Shown: positions 420 through 8,889 of the stretch, piece after piece
How the letters are laid out: each line of letters begins with the position of its first letter
How positions within the stretch are numbered: the stretch's first letter is position 1
Notes under the pieces: generated by a model
What the model was told of the DNA's origin: nothing
What the model saw: only the letters and a program-made list of their open reading frames with translations
Databases searched by the model: none
Translations under genes and position numbers: made by a program
Source: Beijerinckiaceae bacterium
Lineage (GTDB): Bacteria; Pseudomonadota; Alphaproteobacteria; Rhizobiales; Beijerinckiaceae
NCBI GenBank assembly: GCA_947380915.1
Contig: CANCSY010000123.1
Coordinates: forward strand, 1 to 8,889
Direction: 5' to 3'
DNA: 8,889 nt

Positions 420-1103
420 TCAAGCGGCGTCGGCTGTCTGGGTGATCGTCAAACCCGACATGACGACGGTCTGGTGCGTGTAGCGGGCTTCGCTGAGGTT
501 ATCGACAATGAAGGCCGCGAGATCGATGCGGCTGATCGTCCGCTTGCGCCGCTCGCCTTTCGTGCTGGCTAGCCAGCGCCCGGTCGCCGCGCCGTCTGTC
601 AGGCCGACCGGTTGCACCAGTGTCCAGTCAAGGCCAGACGACTTGACCAGGTTCTCCTGCTGCTCCTTGTCGTTCATCTGCTCGCGCAGCAGCAGCCAGC
701 GAAAGATCCGTTTATGCATCGGGGGCAGCAACTTTCGGGTGTCGCCGACGCCGTAACTGGTGACGCAAACCAGTCGCTGCACGCAAGCCGCCTGCGCTGC
801 GGCGATCACATTCGCCGTCCCGATCTCGCAGATGTTCGGCGGCGTAATGCGCTTCATGCCCAACGCCAGCGCAAACGGGTTCCGGGAATCGCCCAGGGCG
901 ACCACGATGGCGTCATGACCGACCACAGCGCGCGCCACCGCGTCGGCGTCGGTCGCGTCGCCCACGATCACGGCGATGTCCTCGCGCTCAGGGAGCTTCG
1001 ACGCATCGCGTGCGAAGGCGGTCACCTGATGGCCCCTGGTCAGCAATGTCAGCGCCATCGCGCGCCCCACTCTGCCGGTCGCCCCGAATACAATGACCTT
1101 CAA
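420..1103 (-). CDS. NAD(P)-binding atypical SDR / NmrA-like reductase
   Basis: This 227-residue protein has an N-terminal Rossmann fold: strand MKVIVF, then the dinucleotide loop GATGRVG (residues 7-13, GxxGxxG), and GDAT at 48-51. VTSYGVGD at 114-121 follows the fifth strand, and SSGLDWTLVQP at about 155-165 is typical of the atypical SDR group that includes NmrA-like and biliverdin-reductase-like proteins. The classical YxxxK catalytic pair is not in its usual place, so a cytosolic NAD(P)H-binding oxidoreductase or redox-sensing role is all that can be claimed; the substrate is unknown. The start codon is TTG at 1103-1101, supported by an AGGAG six bases upstream and by the Rossmann strand beginning at once. 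It is transcribed toward rplS and faces away from the crt genes, so it is probably not part of the photosynthesis cluster. Confidence 0.85.
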   Translation of the reverse strand: MKVIVFGATGRVGRAMALTLLTRGHQVTAFARDASKLPEREDIAVIVGDATDADAVARAVVGHDAIVVALGDSRNPFALALGMKRITPPNICEIGTANVIAAAQAACVQRLVCVTSYGVGDTRKLLPPMHKRIFRWLLLREQMNDKEQQENLVKSSGLDWTLVQPVGLTDGAATGRWLASTKGERRKRTISRIDLAAFIVDNLSEARYTHQTVVMSGLTITQTADAA

Positions 1104-1469: not shown

Positions 1470-1937
1470 ATGTACGAATTTTTCAAGGCCCTCCATATCT
1501 TCGGATTGATCTTGATGGCGGGGAACGTCACCGTCACCGCCTTCTGGAAGGTGTTCGCTGATCGCACCTGCAAGACGCAGATCATCGGCTTTGCACAGTG
1601 GCTGGTGACAGTGACCGATTTTACTTTCACCCTGACCGGCGGCTTTCTGATGGTGATCGGGGGCTATGGCGCCGCGCTGGTGGGCGGCATACCCCTGTTC
1701 GAGACGCCCTGGCTGATCCTCGGCCAGCTCATGCTCGCTGTGTCAGGTGGCATCTGGCTGTTCATTCTGGTTCCGATCCAGATCAGGCAGGCGCGTTATG
1801 CGCGCGATTTCGCGATCATCGGCGACGTGCCGGAAGTGTACAAAAAGGACAGCCGCACCTGGCTGGTCTGGGGGCTGATTTCGACCGTGCCGCTGACCCT
1901 GGGCATGTATTCCATGGTGTTCAAGCCGTATTTCTGA
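1470..1937 (+). CDS. DUF2269-like integral membrane protein
   Basis: This 155-residue protein is almost entirely hydrophobic, with four likely transmembrane helices at about residues 7-27, 50-70, 81-103 and 130-150. The N-terminus (YEFFKALHIFGLILMAGN), a Gly-rich second helix with TGGFLMVIGGYG (56-67), and the soluble loop between helices 3 and 4 with PIQIRQARYARDF resemble the DUF2269 family of predicted inner-membrane proteins, whose function is unknown. His9 in the first helix is the only obvious membrane histidine, so a haem or metal role cannot be inferred. The ATG is chosen because the first helix starts right after it; the upstream ribosome binding site is weak. It lies 108 bases before crtC on the same strand and could be cotranscribed with it, but it looks like a flanking gene rather than a pigment gene. 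Confidence 0.72.
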   Translation: MYEFFKALHIFGLILMAGNVTVTAFWKVFADRTCKTQIIGFAQWLVTVTDFTFTLTGGFLMVIGGYGAALVGGIPLFETPWLILGQLMLAVSGGIWLFILVPIQIRQARYARDFAIIGDVPEVYKKDSRTWLVWGLISTVPLTLGMYSMVFKPYF

Positions 1938-2045: not shown

Positions 2046-3032
2046 ATGTCAGGAGCTAAGTCGCCACCGACTTGTGACGGATCGCCGGGCGCATCAGTTC
2101 CTGGGCCTCGTTTCGACGCGCCGGTGGCGCGTGGCGGCTACAGCTGGTGGTACGTCGACGCATTCAGCGACGACGGCAAAAACGGCATCACCATCATCGC
2201 GCTGATCGGCAGCGTATTTTCGCCCTACTATGCGGCGATGCGGCGCCGCCCCATGGGGGGCGATCCGCTGCACCATCTGTCGCTGAATGTCGCGATCTAC
2301 GGCGAGGGCAAACGCTGGTGCATGACCGAACGCGGCCGAGACTCCCTGCAGCGCGACAAGACGCGGTTGCAGATCGGCCCCAGCTCGCTCGAATGGGATG
2401 GCGACAGCCTGATCATCCATATCGACGAAATCACTGTGCCGTTTCCCAAACGCCTTCGCGGTACGGTTCGGGTGCACCCCACCGCAGTGCTGGGGCAAGC
2501 CTATCCTTTGGACCCAGCCGGTCGTCACCACTGGGAGCCAATCGCCCCGTGCGCGCGTGTGGAGGTCGATCTCAATCGACCGTCGCTGCGCTGGTCGGGC
2601 CATGGCTACCTCGACTCGAACCGTGGCGACGAACCGCTGGAAGCGAGGTTCCGGCGTTGGGACTGGTCGCGCACGGCGCTGAAGCATGGCGCCGCTGTGC
2701 TCTACGACGTGACGCGCCGCGATGGCGACGGACCCGTGCTGGGCCTGCGCTTCGATCCCGCTGGCGGCGTCGAACCCTTCGAGGCGCCGCCGCGGATCAA
2801 ACTGCCGAAAACCATGTGGCGTGTCGAGCGCGAAACGAGGGTCGATCCGCAAGGCGGAGCGCGCGTTCTCGCGACGCTGGAAGACACGCCCTTTTACGCG
2901 CGGTCAGCGTTGGAGACCAACCTGCTTGGCGAAACGGCGACCGCCATGCATGAGAGCCTGTGCCTGGATCGGTTCGACTCCCGTTGGGTGCAAATGCTGC
3001 TGCCGTTCCGGATTCCGCGAGCGCTGCGCTAA
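2046..3032 (+). CDS. crtC: Carotenoid 1,2-hydratase (hydroxyneurosporene synthase)
   Basis: CrtC adds water to the 1,2 double bond of acyclic carotenoids such as neurosporene and lycopene, giving 1-hydroxy derivatives for the spheroidene or spirilloxanthin branch. Family signatures are visible along its 328 residues: GGYSWWYVDAFSDDG (30-44), IGSVFSPYYA (54-63), DPLHHLSLNVAIYG (73-86), MTERGRD (93-99), HHWEPIAPCARVEV (161-174), GHGYLDSNRGDEPLE (185-199) and RRWDWSR (203-209). The asparagine-aspartate pattern in GYLDSNRGDEP is typical of the family. The ATG has GGAG eight bases upstream (2034-2037); the first 20 residues are low-complexity and poorly conserved. It heads a plus-strand run of four closely packed genes. 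Oddly, it is not beside crtD on the same strand; a decayed crtC fragment occupies that place instead. Its sequence differs clearly from that relic, so it is not a recent duplicate. Confidence 0.95.
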   Translation: MSGAKSPPTCDGSPGASVPGPRFDAPVARGGYSWWYVDAFSDDGKNGITIIALIGSVFSPYYAAMRRRPMGGDPLHHLSLNVAIYGEGKRWCMTERGRDSLQRDKTRLQIGPSSLEWDGDSLIIHIDEITVPFPKRLRGTVRVHPTAVLGQAYPLDPAGRHHWEPIAPCARVEVDLNRPSLRWSGHGYLDSNRGDEPLEARFRRWDWSRTALKHGAAVLYDVTRRDGDGPVLGLRFDPAGGVEPFEAPPRIKLPKTMWRVERETRVDPQGGARVLATLEDTPFYARSALETNLLGETATAMHESLCLDRFDSRWVQMLLPFRIPRALR

Positions 3033-3052
3033 ACAAGTGGAAGGGGCGGACC

Positions 3053-3358
3053 ATGGATGAATTCTTTGCAGGCGGGGGCGCCATCACTGTAGTCCTGTGC
3101 CTGATTGTCGTGGAAGCCATCGTGCTGATGGTGCTCTGGCGGATGGGCCTGTGCCCCCTGCCGCCGCGCGCAACCCTGCTGATCCTAGCCCCCGGCACCT
3201 GCCTGTTGCTGGCGGCGCTTGCCGCCCTGTCCGGCGCCTCCTGGATGGGGGTGTCATCGCTTTTCTTCGTCGCGCTGATCATCCACCTCATCGATCTGCG
3301 GCAACGTTGGCAAGAACGCGCGCGCATGGACGCGCCGCCCGGTTCAGGCGTCAAGTAG
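3053..3358 (+). CDS. Small three-helix membrane protein of unknown function
   Basis: I do not recognise this 101-residue protein. Three hydrophobic segments are evident: about residues 11-29, 40-60 and 63-82, followed by a charged cytoplasmic-like tail beginning [11 protein letters not shown]. There is no signal-peptide cleavage motif and no cofactor-binding motif. The ATG at 3053 is chosen because a purine-rich stretch (GGAAGGGGCGGA) lies just ahead of it and the first helix starts soon after; longer in-frame upstream starts would run antisense-like through crtC. It follows the crtC stop by 20 bases and precedes the SDR gene by 25 bases, so cotranscription with both is likely. A role as a membrane partner for carotenoid modification is possible but only guilt by association. 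Confidence 0.7.
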
Positions 3359-3383: not shown

Positions 3384-4310
3384 ATGGGCTGGACAAGGGT
3401 CGATATTCCCTCGCAAAGCGGGCGGCTCGCCGTCGTCACCGGGGCGACCGGCGGGCTCGGATACGAGACGGCGCAGGCGCTGGCTGCGGCGGGCGCAGAG
3501 GTTGTGCTGGCGGGCCGCGACGAGACCAAGGGCGCCCATGCGCTGGCCCGCCTGCGCGCAGCCCATCCCGGCGCCACGGTTCGTTTCGAGCGGCTCGATC
3601 TTGCGTCCCTCGCCTCGGTCGCCGCCTTTGCGGAAACGCTGCTCGCTGCAGGTCGCGGCCTCGATCTGCTGGTCAACAACGCCGGGGTCATGGCGCCGCC
3701 CGAACGGCGTGAGACGGTCGATAGATTCGAACTGCAGTTCGCCACCAACTATCTCGGCCATTTCGCCCTGACCGCGCGCTTGCTGCCACTCCTGCGGCGC
3801 GCTAGCGCGGCGCGCATGGTCAATGTCAGCAGCCTGGCTGCGACATTGAAGACGATCAATCTGGCCGACCTTCATTCGCAACAGGCCTATGTCCCGTTCC
3901 AGACCTATGGCATGACCAAGCTGGCGATGCTGATGTTCGCCCTGGAGTTTCAGCGCCGCAGCGAGAGTGCGGGCTGGGGGATCGCGGGGCTGGCCGCCCA
4001 TCCGGGCTTCGCCCGCACCGACATCATCAGCAACGGACCCGCCTCGTCCGGCTTGCGCGGCGCCCTGTGGCGGCGCACGAAATCGTTCCTGCTTCCCATG
4101 AGCCCGCCGGTCGGTCCGGCGGCCTTGCCGATCCTGCTCGCCGCGACATCGCCGGATGCGAAAGGCGGCGGGTATTATGGGCCGAGGTGGATGCTCGAAA
4201 TCATCGGCCCCCCCGGCCCGGCCAAGCTGCCCAAGCGAGCGCTCGATGGCGCAGCCGCCAGCCAGCTTTGGGAGACATCGGAACGGCTGGCCGGTGTGAG
4301 CTTCGCGTGA
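3384..4310 (+). CDS. Classical short-chain dehydrogenase/reductase (retinol-dehydrogenase-like)
   Basis: The 308-residue protein has every hallmark of a classical NADP(H)-dependent [11 protein letters not shown] (19-26) for cofactor binding, the AGRDETKG segment (43-50) with the arginine that usually favours NADP, NNAGVM (98-103), the catalytic serine in NVSS (147-150) and the YGMTK motif with Tyr175 and Lys179. [10 protein letters not shown] after the sixth strand is also typical. The extended C-terminal half (about residues 200-300) and the [12 protein letters not shown] segment (119-130) resemble the subgroup that includes retinol dehydrogenases and light-dependent protochlorophyllide oxidoreductases, but nothing shows the latter activity. 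Substrate unknown; a lipid or isoprenoid alcohol is a reasonable guess given the crt context. It sits 25 bases after the small membrane protein gene and 7 bases before the glycosyltransferase gene, consistent with one operon. Confidence 0.88.
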
Positions 4311-4317
4311 GGGGCCG

Positions 4318-5634
4318 GTGACGGTCGGGCGTGGTCCTGCGCGCATTCTGATCGTCTCCGACGCCTGGACGCCGCAGGTGAATGGCGTGGTGCGCACCCT
4401 CACCGCCGTCTCAGCCGAACTGCGCGCGATGGGCCACAGTGTCGAAGTGATCGGCCCCGACCGCTTCCGGACCATACCCTGCCCGACCTATCCGGACATC
4501 GGGCTGGCTTTGCTGCCGGGGCGTCGGCTGACGGGCCTCATCGAGGCGTTTCGACCCGACGCCCTGCACATCGCCACCGAAGGACCGCTCGGTCTTGCGG
4601 CGCGCGCCTTTGCATGTCGGCGCGGCCTGCATTTCACCACCGCCTACCACACGCGCTTTCCTGAATATCTCGCGGCGCGTCTCGGCCTTATGGGCCGCAG
4701 CGGGATCACGCATGCCATGACATCGCGCTTTCTGAAATGGTTCCACGCCCCCAGCCAGGGCGTGTTGGTCTCCACCGATAGCATGCGGGAGGAACTGGCC
4801 ATGGGCGGCTTTGTGCGGCTGCGGGCGTGGCCGCGCGGCGTCGATCTGTCGCTTTTCCACCCCGCCCTGCGCCAGGAGGCGCCGGATTTCACGGAACTGC
4901 CGCGACCGCTTTTCGCCTATATCGGGCGCGTCTCCGTGGAAAAGAACATCGGGGCCTTCCTCGACCTCGATCTACCGGGGACGAAACTCGTGGTCGGCGG
5001 CGGCCCACAATTGCGCGCGCTGGAAGGCGCCTATCCGAAGGTCCGCTTCGTCGGGCCAAGGACCGGGCGCGAATTGGCGCGGGCCTTCGCCAGCGCCGAC
5101 GTGCTGGTGTTTCCCAGTCTGACGGATACGTTCGGGCTGGTGGTGATCGAGGCGCTGGCGAGCGGCGCCCCGGTGGCGGCCTTTCCGGTGACAGGTCCGC
5201 GCGACATCCTCAGGGGCGTCGATGGTGTCGTGGGCGTGACCGACGCCGACCTGCGCCTGGCCTGCATGCGGGCCTTGACGCTCGAGCGCGCCGCCTGCCG
5301 GGCCCATGCCGAGGGGTTCACCTGGCGGGCCAGCGCCGAGGCCTTCCTCGAGAATCTGGTCCCGATCCATGGAGCGGCCAGCGTGACGCGTCAGGGCGCA
5401 GGGGTTGAGCGGGTCCTGGCGTCCGGCCCAGCGGCGCCGGGGGAAGAAGGCGCTGTTGCTGATTGCTTGTCGCCGGTCGTCGCTGAGCGCATCGATGGCC
5501 CACCAGATGTGACCACTGGGCGGAACGGAGCGGTCGAAGCCAGGTCCGCCATCACGCTGAGCGCCGCCTGCCGACCCGAGAGCGCCGCCATGGGCACGCC
5601 CGAGCCCGGATGCACGCCCCCGCCCGCCAGATAG
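4318..5634 (+). CDS. GT4-family glycosyltransferase with an aberrant antisense-derived C-terminus
   Basis: The first 350 residues form a complete GT-B glycosyltransferase of the GT4 type, close to sulfoquinovosyl- and GDP-mannose-dependent mannosyltransferases. The N-terminal domain opens with RILIVSDAWTPQVNGVVRTL (9-28) and includes TAYHTRFPEY (108-117). The C-terminal nucleotide-sugar domain has FAYIGRVSVEKN (199-210), VVGGGPQ (225-231), FVGPRTGRELA (244-254) and PSLTDTFGLVVIEALASGAPV (266-286), the region carrying the E-x7-E-like motif. The family normally ends near residue 350-380. Residues from about 351 to 438 show no family resemblance and are the antisense translation of a crtC relic and the crtD 3' end, so the native stop appears lost. 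The GTG start (4318) lies 7 bases after the SDR stop with GAGG upstream. Acceptor unknown: a membrane lipid or a hydroxylated carotenoid. Confidence 0.85.
   Translation: MTVGRGPARILIVSDAWTPQVNGVVRTLTAVSAELRAMGHSVEVIGPDRFRTIPCPTYPDIGLALLPGRRLTGLIEAFRPDALHIATEGPLGLAARAFACRRGLHFTTAYHTRFPEYLAARLGLMGRSGITHAMTSRFLKWFHAPSQGVLVSTDSMREELAMGGFVRLRAWPRGVDLSLFHPALRQEAPDFTELPRPLFAYIGRVSVEKNIGAFLDLDLPGTKLVVGGGPQLRALEGAYPKVRFVGPRTGRELARAFASADVLVFPSLTDTFGLVVIEALASGAPVAAFPVTGPRDILRGVDGVVGVTDADLRLACMRALTLERAACRAHAEGFTWRASAEAFLENLVPIHGAASVTRQGAGVERVLASGPAAPGEEGAVADCLSPVVAERIDGPPDVTTGRNGAVEARSAITLSAACRPESAAMGTPEPGCTPPPAR
5389..5547 (-). pseudogene. crtC: Decayed N-terminal fragment of a second crtC
   Basis: Read on the minus strand from 5547, one frame encodes GPGFDRSV, then GHIWWAIDALSDD, then a scrambled stretch, then SAFFPRRRWAGRQDPLNPCAL. 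This follows the order of the start of CrtC. Against residues 20-45 of the intact CrtC in this window (GPRFDAPV ... GYSWWYVDAFSDDGK) I count 13 identities over 26 ungapped positions. The later part aligns with the family's SVFSPYYAWA and DPLNHCALN motifs after a loss of about five codons. Homology stops at about 5389, where the sequence becomes antisense to the end of the glycosyltransferase gene; the remaining 240 or so residues are missing. It overlaps the crtD tail in another frame, as expected if crtC once followed crtD with a short overlap. No internal stop is present, but the fragment cannot be functional. Confidence 0.8.
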
Positions 5635-7031
5635 AGGCCCGGCAGACGGGTCCGCGCGCCCGGACGCGCGAAGGAGGCCATCCACCCATGCTGCGCGGGC
5701 CCATACAAGGCCCCGCCGGAGGCCGGAAACATCTGGGCGAAATCCGCTGGCGTCGTCACCACGCAGGCTGCGTCCAGCGGCGTCACTGTCAATCCGCAGC
5801 GCTCCAGATGGCGAAAGGTCGCGTCTTCGCAGGATTGCAGGTCCGATAGCTTGAGCGGGGCGCCATCCCCATTGGCGGGCGCGTTGATGAGGCAGAACAG
5901 GCGTTCGCTTTGCGGCTGGGCGCCCGGCTCTGGCGATGGATCGCCGCGATCCTGCGCGCAGACATAGACCGTGGGCGCGCGCGGGACGCGACCGTGGATC
6001 ATGATGTCATCGAACTCGGCCCGGTAGGCGTCCGAGAAAAACACATTATGGCGCAGCAGGGGAAAGCCCTCGGTCTTGGCCTGCATGGACCATGTGATCG
6101 CCGAGAGGACGCGCGCCTTGGGCGGCGTCATGGCGACGGCGCCGGTGACGTCGGGACCCAGCAAACCCGCCCCCAGCGCCGACACATCGCCGTTCATGAT
6201 GACGGCATCCGCCGCCAGGCGCTCGCCATCGGCAAGCTCCACCCCGCAAGAGCGCCCGCCCTCGACGAGGATGCGCGCCGCCCGGCGGTTGTAGAGAAAG
6301 GTCGCGCCGCAGCGCTGCGCCATGGTCGCCAGCCCCTCGGCCAGCCGCTGCATGCCGCCCTCGATCAGCCAGACGCCCTCGCGCTCCACATGGGCCACCA
6401 GCATGAGGGTGGCGGGCGCCGCATAGGGTGAGGCGCCGCAATAGGTGGCGTAACGGGCGAAGAGTTGGCGCAGGCGCGGATCACGGAACGTGCCAGCCAG
6501 CGCATCCGCCAGGGTTGAATAGGGCGAGATGCGCATCAGCTCGCCCAGGCGCGAGAAGCCGATCCGGCGCGAGAGTTGAAACAGATTGGGCCGGGAGGCG
6601 TGGATGAAGCTGTCCTTTAGCGTCCTATAGATGCCCTGCGCCCGCGCGGCGAAATCCCGATAGGCTTGCGCGTCCCGCGCGCCGCAGAAGGCTGCGATGG
6701 CTTCGACGCTCTGCTCGAGATCGGCGAAGAGGTCGAGCCGCGCGCCATCGCTCCAGCCATGGCGGGCCAGGGTCTGCGTGGGCTTGCAGGTGACATGATC
6801 GTCAAGGGACAGGCCCACATCTGCGGCCAGTTCATCGAAAACCCAGCGCATGGTGAGGACCGTGGGGCCGGAGTCGATGGGGACGCCGCCCGCCATGACT
6901 TCGCGCATCTTGCCGCCCGGAGCCGCAGTCGATTCCACCACCGTGACCTCGACGCCTGCAGCGGCCAGACGCAGCGCGGCGGTCAGTCCGCCCACGCCCG
7001 CCCCAATGATCACGACATGGCGCATGCGCAT
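5391..7031 (-). CDS. crtD: Hydroxyneurosporene/rhodopin 3,4-desaturase (methoxyneurosporene dehydrogenase)
   Basis: CrtD is an FAD-dependent, membrane-associated desaturase that introduces the 3,4 double bond into 1-hydroxy acyclic carotenoids. The N-terminus carries VVIIGAGVGGLTAALRLA (6-23) with the GxGxxG dinucleotide motif, followed by the phytoene-desaturase-family stretch APGGKMRE and IDSGPTVLTM. The C-terminal FAD motif GLYLAGGGVHPGSGVPMA is at about 465-482. The closest family alternative is CrtI, but the position divergent from crtEF and the crtC relic after it favour CrtD. The start at 7031 is preferred because GGAGG lies seven bases upstream; in-frame ATGs at 7103 and 7091 would lie in the operator region. 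The conserved part ends near residue 499; the last 47 residues (rich in S, T, P, A, G) are the frame-shifted reading of the crtC relic, so the original stop seems to have been lost. Confidence 0.93.
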   Translation of the reverse strand: MRMRHVVIIGAGVGGLTAALRLAAAGVEVTVVESTAAPGGKMREVMAGGVPIDSGPTVLTMRWVFDELAADVGLSLDDHVTCKPTQTLARHGWSDGARLDLFADLEQSVEAIAAFCGARDAQAYRDFAARAQGIYRTLKDSFIHASRPNLFQLSRRIGFSRLGELMRISPYSTLADALAGTFRDPRLRQLFARYATYCGASPYAAPATLMLVAHVEREGVWLIEGGMQRLAEGLATMAQRCGATFLYNRRAARILVEGGRSCGVELADGERLAADAVIMNGDVSALGAGLLGPDVTGAVAMTPPKARVLSAITWSMQAKTEGFPLLRHNVFFSDAYRAEFDDIMIHGRVPRAPTVYVCAQDRGDPSPEPGAQPQSERLFCLINAPANGDGAPLKLSDLQSCEDATFRHLERCGLTVTPLDAACVVTTPADFAQMFPASGGALYGPAQHGWMASFARPGARTRLPGLYLAGGGVHPGSGVPMAALSGRQAALSVMADLASTAPFRPVVTSGGPSMRSATTGDKQSATAPSSPGAAGPDARTRSTPAP

Positions 7032-7038
7032 CCGACCG

Positions 7039-7043
7039 CCTCC
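7039..7043 (-). promoter_or_regulatory. Shine-Dalgarno GGAGG that sets the crtD start
   Basis: On the minus strand GGAGG (7043-7039) precedes ATG at 7031-7029 by seven bases. This favours the shorter 546-residue CrtD over starts at 7103 or 7091, which would place the operator palindrome inside the coding sequence and add residues unlike the family. A second in-frame ATG at 7025 is a minor alternative. Confidence 0.75.
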
Positions 7044-7072
7044 GCGAGAAAAATGCGCGGAGCCCTCTTGCG

Positions 7073-7090
7073 TGTCAACATAAATTGACA
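7073..7090. promoter_or_regulatory. PpsR/CrtJ-type operator TGT-N12-ACA
   Basis: TGT at 7073-7075 and ACA at 7088-7090 are separated by exactly 12 AT-rich bases (CAACATAAATTG). This is an exact match to the palindromic consensus bound by the redox/light-responsive repressor PpsR (CrtJ), which controls carotenoid, bacteriochlorophyll and light-harvesting genes in purple bacteria. It lies in the 101-base interval between the divergent crtD and crtE genes, 42 bases from each start codon, and a TTGACA on each strand overlaps it. Repression of both transcripts by one site is therefore likely. I could not identify convincing -10 boxes. Confidence 0.8.
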
Positions 7091-7102
7091 TTACATTTGA
7101 CA
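7085..7102. promoter_or_regulatory. Degenerate second PpsR-like half-palindrome
   Basis: TTG-N12-ACA at 7085-7102 has the correct length and one perfect half (ACA at 7100-7102) but TTG in place of TGT in the other. It shares six bases (7085-7090) with the exact operator beside it. TTGACA is repeated at 7085-7090 and 7097-7102, so the site could equally be two -35 elements for crtE. It is a weak candidate for a cooperative second site. Confidence 0.35.
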
Positions 7103-7132
7103 ATCAAAACTGACGAGTGATGGGGTAGGACC

Positions 7133-8002
7133 ATGCAGATCGCAGACCGCATCGAGCAAGCCCTCGCACAGGCCATCGCATCTGCGCAGGGCGCAGGCGC
7201 GCCGCCCCTGCTGGCCTCGGCCCTTCAGTACGCGGTTTTCCCGAGCGGGCATCGCATCCGGCCCCAGCTCTGCCTGGCGGTGGCCATGGCCTGCGGCGAT
7301 ACGGACCCCGCAGCGGCCGACGCGGCGGCGGCCTCCATCGAACTGTTGCATTGCGCCTCCCTCGTCCATGACGATCTCCCCTGCTTCGACGATGCGGACA
7401 TGCGGCGCGGCAAGCCTTCGGTCCATCTGCAATATGGCGAGCCGCTGGCGGTTCTGACCGGCGACGCGCTGATCGTACAGGCCTTCGAGATTCTGGCCCA
7501 GGGCGTCGCCAAATCCCCCCAGAGGCTGGCGAGCCTGCTGACCATCATCGCCCAATCCGTGGGCTCCCCCAATGGCATTGTGGCGGGCCAGGCCTGGGAA
7601 TGCGAGGCGGCGGTCTCCCTCAGCGATTACCAGCGCGCCAAGACCGGCGCCCTTTTCGTGGCCGCCACGGCGGCGGGGGCGGCGGCAGCGGGCCATGATC
7701 CCGCGATCTGGCGCACGCTGGGCGCCAAGCTCGGCGAGGCCTATCAGGTCGCCGACGATCTGCGCGATGTGCTCTGCAACGCTGCGGAACTCGGCAAGCC
7801 CATCGGCCAGGACGCCGCACGCAAGCGCCCCAACGCCGCCGCGCAACTGGGCGTCGGCGGGGCCAAGGCACGGCTTGAGGAGCTGATGAAGGCGGCGATC
7901 GACTCGATCCCCGATTGCCCCGGCCAGACCCAGCTGCGCAAGCTCATCAAGGCCCAGACCAGCGCGTTCTTCCCCAAGGAACTCGCCCTCGTGGCGGCCT
8001 GA
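7133..8002 (+). CDS. crtE: Geranylgeranyl diphosphate synthase
   Basis: CrtE condenses isopentenyl diphosphate with allylic diphosphates to give C20 geranylgeranyl diphosphate, precursor of carotenoids and of the phytyl tail of bacteriochlorophyll. In this 289-residue protein the first aspartate-rich motif is DDLPCFD (80-86), with SLVHDD before it and RRGKPSVH (91-98) after it; the second is DDLRD (208-212) in GEAYQVADDLRDVL. FPSGHRIRP (36-44) supplies the usual diphosphate-binding Gly, His and Arg. Length and motifs fit the trans-prenyltransferase family. FPP synthase (ispA) has similar motifs, but adjacency to crtF and divergence from crtD fix the call as crtE. The ATG is preceded by a purine-rich GGGGTAGGA. 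It is followed 9 bases later by crtF, with which it is surely cotranscribed. Confidence 0.95.
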   Translation: MQIADRIEQALAQAIASAQGAGAPPLLASALQYAVFPSGHRIRPQLCLAVAMACGDTDPAAADAAAASIELLHCASLVHDDLPCFDDADMRRGKPSVHLQYGEPLAVLTGDALIVQAFEILAQGVAKSPQRLASLLTIIAQSVGSPNGIVAGQAWECEAAVSLSDYQRAKTGALFVAATAAGAAAAGHDPAIWRTLGAKLGEAYQVADDLRDVLCNAAELGKPIGQDAARKRPNAAAQLGVGGAKARLEELMKAAIDSIPDCPGQTQLRKLIKAQTSAFFPKELALVAA

Positions 8003-8011
8003 GGGCGCGCC

Positions 8012-8889
8012 GTGACGGCGCAGGCCCAGGGGCGTCCCGTCATGGCGAATCCCGTCTCCAGCTGGCGCGACAGCCTGATCAGGCTGCGCACCCGCGTCAT
8101 CAGCAACCCCCGTTTCCAGCGCTGGGCGGCGGCCTCGCCGCTCACCCGCTTCATCGCGCGGCGGCAGGCGCGGGCCTTGTTCGACCTGTGCGCAGGCTTT
8201 GTCTATTCGCAGGTCCTCGCCGCCTTCGTGCAGCTGCGCCTCTGCGATCATCTTGCCGAAGGACCACGCTCCGTGGAGGCGCTGGCCCGCCTCACTGACC
8301 TCACCCCCGACGCCGCCAGGCGCCTGCTCCGCGCCGCCGCCTCGCTGGGGCTGGTGCGTTCCATGCCGGGCGAGCGCTATGCGCTGGCTGATCTGGGCGC
8401 CTCCATGATCGGCAATCCCTCCGTGGCCGCCTTCATCGCCCATCACGCGCTGCTCTATGATGATCTGCGCGATCCCGTGGCCCTGCTGCGCGGTCAGACG
8501 CAAACGCGACTTTCCCAATTCTGGCCCTATGCGGGCGACCGGCCCGAGACGGCCTCAGGCGCCGAGACGCCGCCCGAAGGCTATGCGGGCTACAGCGCCC
8601 TCATGGCGCAATCGCAGGCGCTGGTGGCGGAGGACATACTTGACGCCTGGCCCATGACCAGGCACCGCCGCCTGCTGGATGTGGGCGGCGGCGAGGGTGT
8701 CTTCATCGCGGAGGTGGCGGCTAGCGCGCCGGACTTGCAGCTGCAACTCTTCGACCTGCCACCCGTGGCCGCGCGGGCGCAGGAGGCGCTGGCCCGCCGG
8801 GGTCTCGCCAATCGGGTGGACTGCATCGGCGGGAGCTTCCTGCGCGATCCCCTGCCGCGCGGGGCCGACATTATCAGCCTCGTGCGCAT
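8012..8889 (+). CDS. crtF: Hydroxyneurosporene O-methyltransferase (3' end outside window)
   Basis: CrtF transfers a methyl group from S-adenosylmethionine to the 1-hydroxyl of carotenoids made by CrtC and CrtD, yielding the methoxy group of spheroidene and spirilloxanthin. The visible 292 residues show the plant-type O-methyltransferase layout: an N-terminal dimerisation and winged-helix region (FDLCAGFVYSQVLAAFVQL, 57-75; LTDLTPDAARRLLRAAASLGLV, about 94-115), then the SAM-binding motif I LLDVGGGEGVF (221-231) and the acidic loop FDLPPV (247-252). RFQRWAAASPLTR at 34-46 is typical of CrtF. The start is either GTG at 8012, with GAGGG upstream and 9 bases after crtE, or ATG at 8042 in the same frame; conserved sequence begins after both, so the choice is uncertain. 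The gene runs off the right edge before its end. Confidence 0.93.
   Translation, partial: MTAQAQGRPVMANPVSSWRDSLIRLRTRVISNPRFQRWAAASPLTRFIARRQARALFDLCAGFVYSQVLAAFVQLRLCDHLAEGPRSVEALARLTDLTPDAARRLLRAAASLGLVRSMPGERYALADLGASMIGNPSVAAFIAHHALLYDDLRDPVALLRGQTQTRLSQFWPYAGDRPETASGAETPPEGYAGYSALMAQSQALVAEDILDAWPMTRHRRLLDVGGGEGVFIAEVAASAPDLQLQLFDLPPVAARAQEALARRGLANRVDCIGGSFLRDPLPRGADIISLVR

Follow-up and report, generated by a model that had tools for sequence, protein, structure and literature searches.

Decay of a crtC gene behind crtD and its probable displacement by a crtC of separate descent in a Beijerinckiaceae bacterium

Introduction

The carotenoid 1,2-hydratase CrtC corresponds to the family PF07143, and the catalytic residues given for the Rubrivivax enzyme are His239, Trp241, Tyr266 and Asp268 (PMC4717167). 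The gene order crtFECD has been described for Thiocapsa, in a 2023 review in which transfer of photosynthesis genes is also documented (PMC10604819).

The window analysed here is the whole of an 8,889-nucleotide stretch of DNA from a Beijerinckiaceae bacterium (contig CANCSY010000123.1). A stub of crtC lies behind crtD on the minus strand, and an intact crtC of another lineage lies on the plus strand. No description of a stub of this kind behind crtD was found in a search of the open-access literature. The stub and the intact gene are referred to below as crtC1 and crtC2, and the features of the window are as follows.

420..1103, minus strand: putative NmrA-like gene, named from its sequence, at the edge of the block (synteny)
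1470..1937, plus strand: DUF2269 membrane protein gene of the block (PF10027, synteny)
2046..3032, plus strand: crtC2, intact predicted carotenoid 1,2-hydratase gene (NF045922, E 1e-88, 297 bits; trees and clade test; catalytic residues present)
3041..3358, plus strand: small ORF of the block, from an ATG common to relatives in the alignment with L001 and L003 (mechanical ORF start 2960; no Pfam match above cut-off)
3384..4310, plus strand: short-chain dehydrogenase/reductase (SDR) gene of the block (PF00106, synteny)
4318..5634, plus strand: family 4 glycosyltransferase gene, antisense through the relic and the end of crtD (Pfam; C-terminus compared with L001 and G321)
5389..5397, minus strand: deletion junction, about 0.82 kb absent relative to L001 5354-6180 (alignment with L001; crtC-side edge recurs in P0122-P0124)
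5397..5547, minus strand: crtC1 relic, the decayed 5' piece of the crtC native here (DNA and protein alignment to intact L001 and L002 crtC, shuffles, codon-position count)
5391..7031, minus strand: crtD, conserved part 5544-7031, then 50 residues of tail that cross the relic in another frame (NF045637, 698 bits; mechanical ORF start 7103)
7133..8887, plus strand: crtE (7133-8002) and crtF (from 8012, cut by the window end), putative names from the usual order and synteny with 80 loci, divergent from crtD

Results

A stub of crtC beneath the end of crtD

The minus-strand frame from 5547 to 5389 translates as GPGFDRSVPPSGHIWWAIDALSDDRRQAISNSAFFPRRRWAGRQDPLNPCALT. In a tblastn comparison covering 80 loci and the window, the intact CrtC proteins encoded behind crtD in L001 and L002 each matched this relic with 55% identity over 58 columns (E 1.4e-16), and the window's own intact CrtC matched it with 40% identity (E 5e-5). 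As DNA, the relic aligned to the L001 and L002 genes with scores of 111 and 122, against best scores of 37 and 30 from 500 shuffles each; its 3' half alone (5389-5482) scored 68 and 72 against shuffle bests of 34 and 33, and the relic scored 43 with the window's own crtC2 against a shuffle best of 33. It is clear that the N-terminal CrtC signature which the initial annotation had noticed in this frame reflects significant similarity. The family profiles were silent, with no family found for the 53-aa piece in Pfam or NCBIfam model searches, but since the NCBIfam CrtC model, even on the intact CrtC of the window, matches only from residue 50 onward, this says little.

The DNA can be aligned with L001 and L002 from the crtD end as far as about 5397, interrupted internally by a single 15-nt gap. 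There the crtC homology stops, where sequence of the glycosyltransferase side starts, as initially annotated, and the final residues of the frame, ALT, derive from the far side of the junction; the coordinates of relic and junction are good to within about ten bases. The open reading frames 5391-7103 and 4318-5634 further confirm that the fragment sits under the crtD reading frame and antisense to that of the glycosyltransferase. On the basis of these alignments, the window from 5547 to about 5397 on the minus strand is assigned with high confidence to the 5' end of a crtC gene. At the start of the relic, L001, L002 and L003 have 12 nt more than the window and G321; a deletion in the window was considered for this difference and rejected, the short form being typical of most CrtD tails.

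The crtD-crtC order divergent from crtE and crtF, which had been put forward as known from purple bacteria, is widespread: of 80 loci retrieved by means of the window's CrtD, 75 have crtC on the same strand, starting at most 300 nt from the crtD end, and in L041 it lies 713 nt beyond. No crtC was found behind crtD in the other four (L003, L027, L064 and L077), with only 741 nt of contig remaining in L064. A crtC is present at another place, divergent from crtE, in the genomes of L027 and L077, and none was found in the genome of L064. In the former two genomes (L155 and L154, respectively) it is crtC that diverges from crtE-crtF, where most loci place crtD, and crtD lies at another place without crtC.

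Decay of the stub

Only about 150 nt of crtC1 remain as the relic, and the four catalytic CrtC residues fall in the part that is missing. Both types have the His, Trp, Tyr and Asp at the published spacing, as seen for crtC2 in the window, L003 and G103 and for crtC1 in L001, L002 and G321. When the relic was compared with L001, L002 and G321 over two ungapped pieces of 39 codons in all, 23, 22 and 22 sites differed, distributed over the three codon positions as 9/5/9, 8/5/9 and 9/6/7, respectively; the intact copies differ mutually at 8-9 sites over the same codons. The relic has therefore changed about 2.5 times as much as the intact copies have among themselves, in a small sample of 39 codons that overlaps the crtD tail frame, and it keeps 26-28 of 39 residues, versus 35-37 among the intact copies. 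Changes that are indifferent to codon position over these 39 codons indicate relaxed constraint in the crtC frame. The stretch thus combines significant homology at the orthologous place, loss of functional parts and relaxed constraint, as a crtC pseudogene would.

No stop codon occurs in the crtC frame of the relic before the junction, which is a point against long decay, as a long-dead gene might show one. The first 50-60 nt of the relic also coincide with a crtD overlap common in relatives, and as they double as CrtD frame this first part could have been kept for that reason. Judged by its sequence, the relic would have no function as crtC and appears to be the remainder of a redundant gene between two convergent genes.

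The intact gene belongs to another lineage

The 297 bits with which crtC2 matches NF045922 fall short of that model's curated cut-off (400), and the best that Pfam gave for crtC2 was a weak, below-cut-off match to DA_N. The name CrtC therefore rests on homology and the catalytic motif, and it is used here as a prediction and not as an equivalog assignment to NF045922. Among named relatives, Rhodoblastus sphagnicola has the closest one (83% identity); others come from Rhodovastum (74%, the match covering 83% of the length) and from Thiocystis, Thiodictyon, Thiorhodococcus, Rhodocyclus and Imhoffiella (66-69%). A tree of 130 CrtC rows places crtC2 within a 22-row set with these named relatives (SH-aLRT 99), and in a 54-row tree, composed of 49 rows chosen from the 130 and five added, the set with Rhodoblastus, Rhodovastum, Chromatiaceae and Rhodocyclus is supported at 100/97. 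In the latter tree, the CrtC proteins of L001, L002 and G321 group elsewhere, with the outgroup G122 (99/97).

Forcing the CrtC proteins of the window, L003, L001, L002 and G321 into one clade was 128 log units worse (p-AU 4.2e-5); as this constraint is rejected, no recent duplication connects crtC1 and crtC2, which are, with high confidence, separate lineages. Either transfer or an older duplication may have given rise to crtC2. Resident and newcomer thus differ in descent within the family, as expected of gene displacement. The DNA identity of crtC2 between the window and L003 is 86.7% and that of crtC1 between L001 and L002 is 85.8%, with crtD at 86.2% and 86.4%, respectively; since the crtC values are about those of crtD, neither gene appears to have been recently imported from a close relative. 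A plasmid search with crtC2 returned 11 records, all below 60% identity.

The gene lies in a block with the order NmrA-DUF2269-crtC2-small ORF-SDR-glycosyltransferase, on the strand opposite to the relic. In G103 and G174, crtC2 stands beside the same NmrA, DUF2269 and SDR genes, and these neighbours favour crtC2 as original to the block; no glycosyltransferase of the window's kind was found beside it in the stretches examined of these two genomes. The NmrA, DUF2269, crtC2 and SDR genes adjoin in L113 (6169-11070) and L114 (2669-8244), two unlinked or crtI-linked settings, and in L113 the small ORF lies near the group. It is possible that these four genes form a conserved carotenoid-related block.

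Alternation of the two genes among relatives

Around the same locus, L002 and G122 have crtD-crtC1-crtB-crtI and no block; L001 and G321 have crtD-crtC1, then the block without crtC2, then crtB-crtI; and in L003 crtD is followed by the block including crtC2 and then by crtB-crtI, an arrangement which the window shares as far as it reaches. The type of crtC is thus crtC1 in L001, L002 and G321 and crtC2 in the window and L003. What remains of crtC1 in L003 is at most about 30 nt, its score being reached by 0 of 1000 shuffles with L002 and 13 of 1000 with L001, and part of this match is the crtD end. The intact crtC at the same place in three close relatives, together with the relic, supports the earlier proposal that this lineage once had crtD-crtC and then lost most of crtC. 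The relic and the broken pair proposed by the initial annotation both stand; its description of the relic as a second crtC is refined, the relic being the native gene and the intact crtC of the window belonging to another lineage. The partner gene crtC2, the tie between loss and replacement and the alternation of crtC types among relatives are new here.

Among the 51 genomes listed for the genus of G003, crtD was matched in 17 at E 1e-100. By coordinates, 15 of the 17 have an adjacent crtC match, including G324, where it is cut by a contig end; the remaining two are G003 and G316, the latter with a crtD piece at a contig edge and no crtC match. A crtC piece without a crtD match occurs in G320. 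G324 has a partial crtC piece at the edge of each of two contigs (C86 and C175); the two overlap when aligned and may come from separate genes, from a mixture of strains or from a split in the assembly. Some record names look odd: L001 is entered as Rhizobium, but its genome is listed with the genus of a Beijerinckiaceae bin, and L021 is entered as Frankia and L011 as Anaerolineae, yet the crtC of both falls among those of proteobacteria.

A second genus, that of G103, has crtC in 5 of 11 genomes. In G225, G146 and G074 the gene lies beside crtD and is 52-53% identical to crtC2, and in G103 and G174 it is of the crtC2 type (81 and 83%); crtD is on a contig other than that of crtC2 in G103, and G174 gave no crtD match at E 1e-80. 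The alternation therefore recurs in this genus. Behind crtD of G103, a Rhodoblastus-type genome (L122, about 2950-3045), another frame reads GPAFDAPVAPRGP, followed by crtB, and this stretch, judged by eye, is likely a crtC stub.

In a family sample, 96 of 298 genomes match crtC, four of them twice (G153, G196, G198 and G225), the double matches being pieces of one gene or a full copy with a fragment. That of G225 (contig C44, 1671-1841) is a 57-residue CrtC C-terminal piece about 1 kb from the full crtC. No clear case of a genome with both crtC1 and crtC2 intact was found in this sample or in the genera of G003 and G103.

The deletion junction and the glycosyltransferase tail

Past about 5397 the alignment leaps by about 0.82 kb in L001, from 5354 to 6180, and lands just beyond the glycosyltransferase gene; a short GCGC/TGA match can be seen by eye at the junction. 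Beyond the shared core motif, the window's glycosyltransferase goes on for about 95 residues, which are read antisense to the relic and to the end of crtD, so that the convergent frames overlap by 244 nt (5391-5634). Those of L001 and G321 have their own stop about 25 residues past the motif and lack the tail. With the C-terminal part as query, six database proteins were found, which have tails of varied length with the same end motif. The antisense tails of P0122, P0123 and P0124 (84, 75 and 67% identical to the window over residues 340-438; longest contigs 5,032, 2,262 and 2,917 nt) have the same crtC-side edge as the window; on the glycosyltransferase side of the junction P0123 and P0124 differ from it. 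The tails of P0125 and P0126 are shorter, and P0127 is nearly identical to L003. In two CrtD proteins, P0131 and P0132, the tail is decayed and its internal gap is a different one. Comparison of these proteins suggests that the junction is most likely inherited.

These observations bear on three other ways in which the stretch could be read. The relatives are largely metagenome bins, so that an assembly or binning error might be suspected; that P0122-P0124, from other contigs, carry the same crtC-side edge makes an error unlikely, and since decay of the relic needs time as well, the suspicion retains hardly any weight. An equally slight probability attaches to an ordinary CrtD C-terminal tail with a spurious likeness to crtC. 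Many CrtD frames do extend, out of frame with crtC, over its first 50-60 nt, and the CrtD frame of the window is open to 5391; however, in L027, L064 and L077, where no crtC follows, CrtD stops 2-3 residues past its aligned part, and the 3' half of the relic, beyond the usual overlap, is significant alone, which refutes this reading in substance. Alternatively, the relic could have been retained as a useful coding tail of the glycosyltransferase or of CrtD, since the tail is open in the window, L003 and the six database proteins. This is very improbable: total glycosyltransferase lengths range from 392 to 438 residues as parts of the relic drop out stepwise, L001 and G321 do without the tail, and antisense frames often stay open in GC-rich DNA. 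Proteins with the tail and those without it were not resolved as separate groups in a tree built from ten glycosyltransferase cores.

Discussion

The history which best accounts for the locus, and which we consider highly probable, is gene displacement, in which crtC1 was deleted and decayed while crtC2 was present in the block, the old copy being still readable. This draws on the homology of the relic, its intact orthologues in three relatives, the block and its absence from L002 and G122, the separate descent of the two genes, the codon-blind decay and the shared junction. The ancestor would have had crtF-crtE divergent from crtD-crtC1, followed by crtB-crtI, and the block with its differently descended crtC2 would have settled between crtC1 and crtB. 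If crtC2 then supplied the 1,2-hydratase, crtC1 would have become dispensable and its loss tolerable. A deletion of about 0.82 kb, possibly by microhomology, would have taken most of crtC1 together with the stop codon of the adjoining glycosyltransferase gene, joining the relic to this convergent gene, and the leftover 5' piece would then have decayed. We place moderate confidence in this order of events.

Whether a single ancestor held both genes bears on how the displacement proceeded. On crtF-crtE-crtD the window is sister to L001 with 100% bootstrap and is nearest to it in 14 of 14 bins of a breakpoint search; an expected sister grouping of the window and L003 is rejected there (p-AU 0.0145), and the grouping of the window with G321 is not (0.093). 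The alignments of the block follow the flank tree less cleanly: NmrA-DUF2269 and small ORF-SDR-glycosyltransferase both fit the window with L003 best. Furthermore, L001 and G321 have one common junction without crtC2 although the window, and not G321, is the sister of L001, and simple coexistence of the two genes would therefore need separate losses or a regain. This and the lack of a genome with both genes intact in the samples described speak against the displacement history in its simplest form, and an ancestor with both crtC1 and crtC2 seems slightly more probable than not.

Alternatively, two haplotypes, one with crtC1 and the other with crtC2 and a dying crtC1, may have been exchanged by recombination among related species. 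The main deletion in crtC1 would then be single, and no lineage need have kept two working genes for long. The disagreement between flank and block, the crtC2-less junction common to L001 and G321 and the summed block site patterns (59 for the window with L001, 63 with L003 and 26 with G321) are all in its favour. However, the block preferences are not significant (p-AU 0.36 and 0.31 for the window with L001), the SDR alone fits the window with L001 slightly better, again not significantly, the tailed and untailed glycosyltransferases are not separated, and the window stays closest to L001 throughout crtF-crtE-crtD. Such exchange is a serious possibility, though we hold it to be rather doubtful.

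With displacement as the preferred reading, the relatives present successive stages of one photosynthesis-cluster enzyme gene yielding to another: intact, reduced to a stub, and reduced to its last few dozen nucleotides. It follows that the crtC genes of closely related genomes need not be orthologous, and that a deletion between convergent genes can extend a neighbouring gene by a new tail coded antisense. Pigment might be predictable from gene order if the products of the two CrtC types are not the same. Other crtC2 relatives presumably make rhodopin or rhodopinal, and the crtC2 block, to which the glycosyltransferase belongs in the group of the window, could be a carotenoid-tailoring module of the rhodopin/rhodopinal kind, the change from crtC1 to crtC2 switching the pigment; the two types would then be alternatives in function and not neutral substitutes. 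This is unlikely, and L001 and G321, which retain the SDR and the glycosyltransferase without crtC2, stand against it, as do the examined stretches of G103 and G174, in which no such glycosyltransferase was found next to crtC2. Were it true, the SDR or the glycosyltransferase would be candidates for the rhodopinal or glycosylation steps, the genes for which are called unknown in the 2023 review that mentions rhodopinal for Thiodictyon (PMC10604819).

Relative to the CrtC hydratase (NF045922), the relic shares the N-terminal signature and lacks the catalytic part, whereas crtC2 is an intact member and has all four catalytic residues, albeit at 297 bits under the cut-off of 400. The order crtD-crtC divergent from crtE-crtF is that of purple bacteria, as in 75 of 80 loci, but in the window the crtC of this pair is a stub and the working crtC is predicted on the other strand, in the block. 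Pseudogenes and gene displacement are known kinds, and the case is an ordinary displacement, unusually well preserved. Xenologous displacement and the transfer of photosynthesis genes are reportedly treated by Klassen (2009) and Igarashi (2001); as in xenologous gene displacement, loss of the resident goes together with the presence of a gene of other descent for the same step, and the difference is that the remnants of the resident can here be read at several stages in related sequences.
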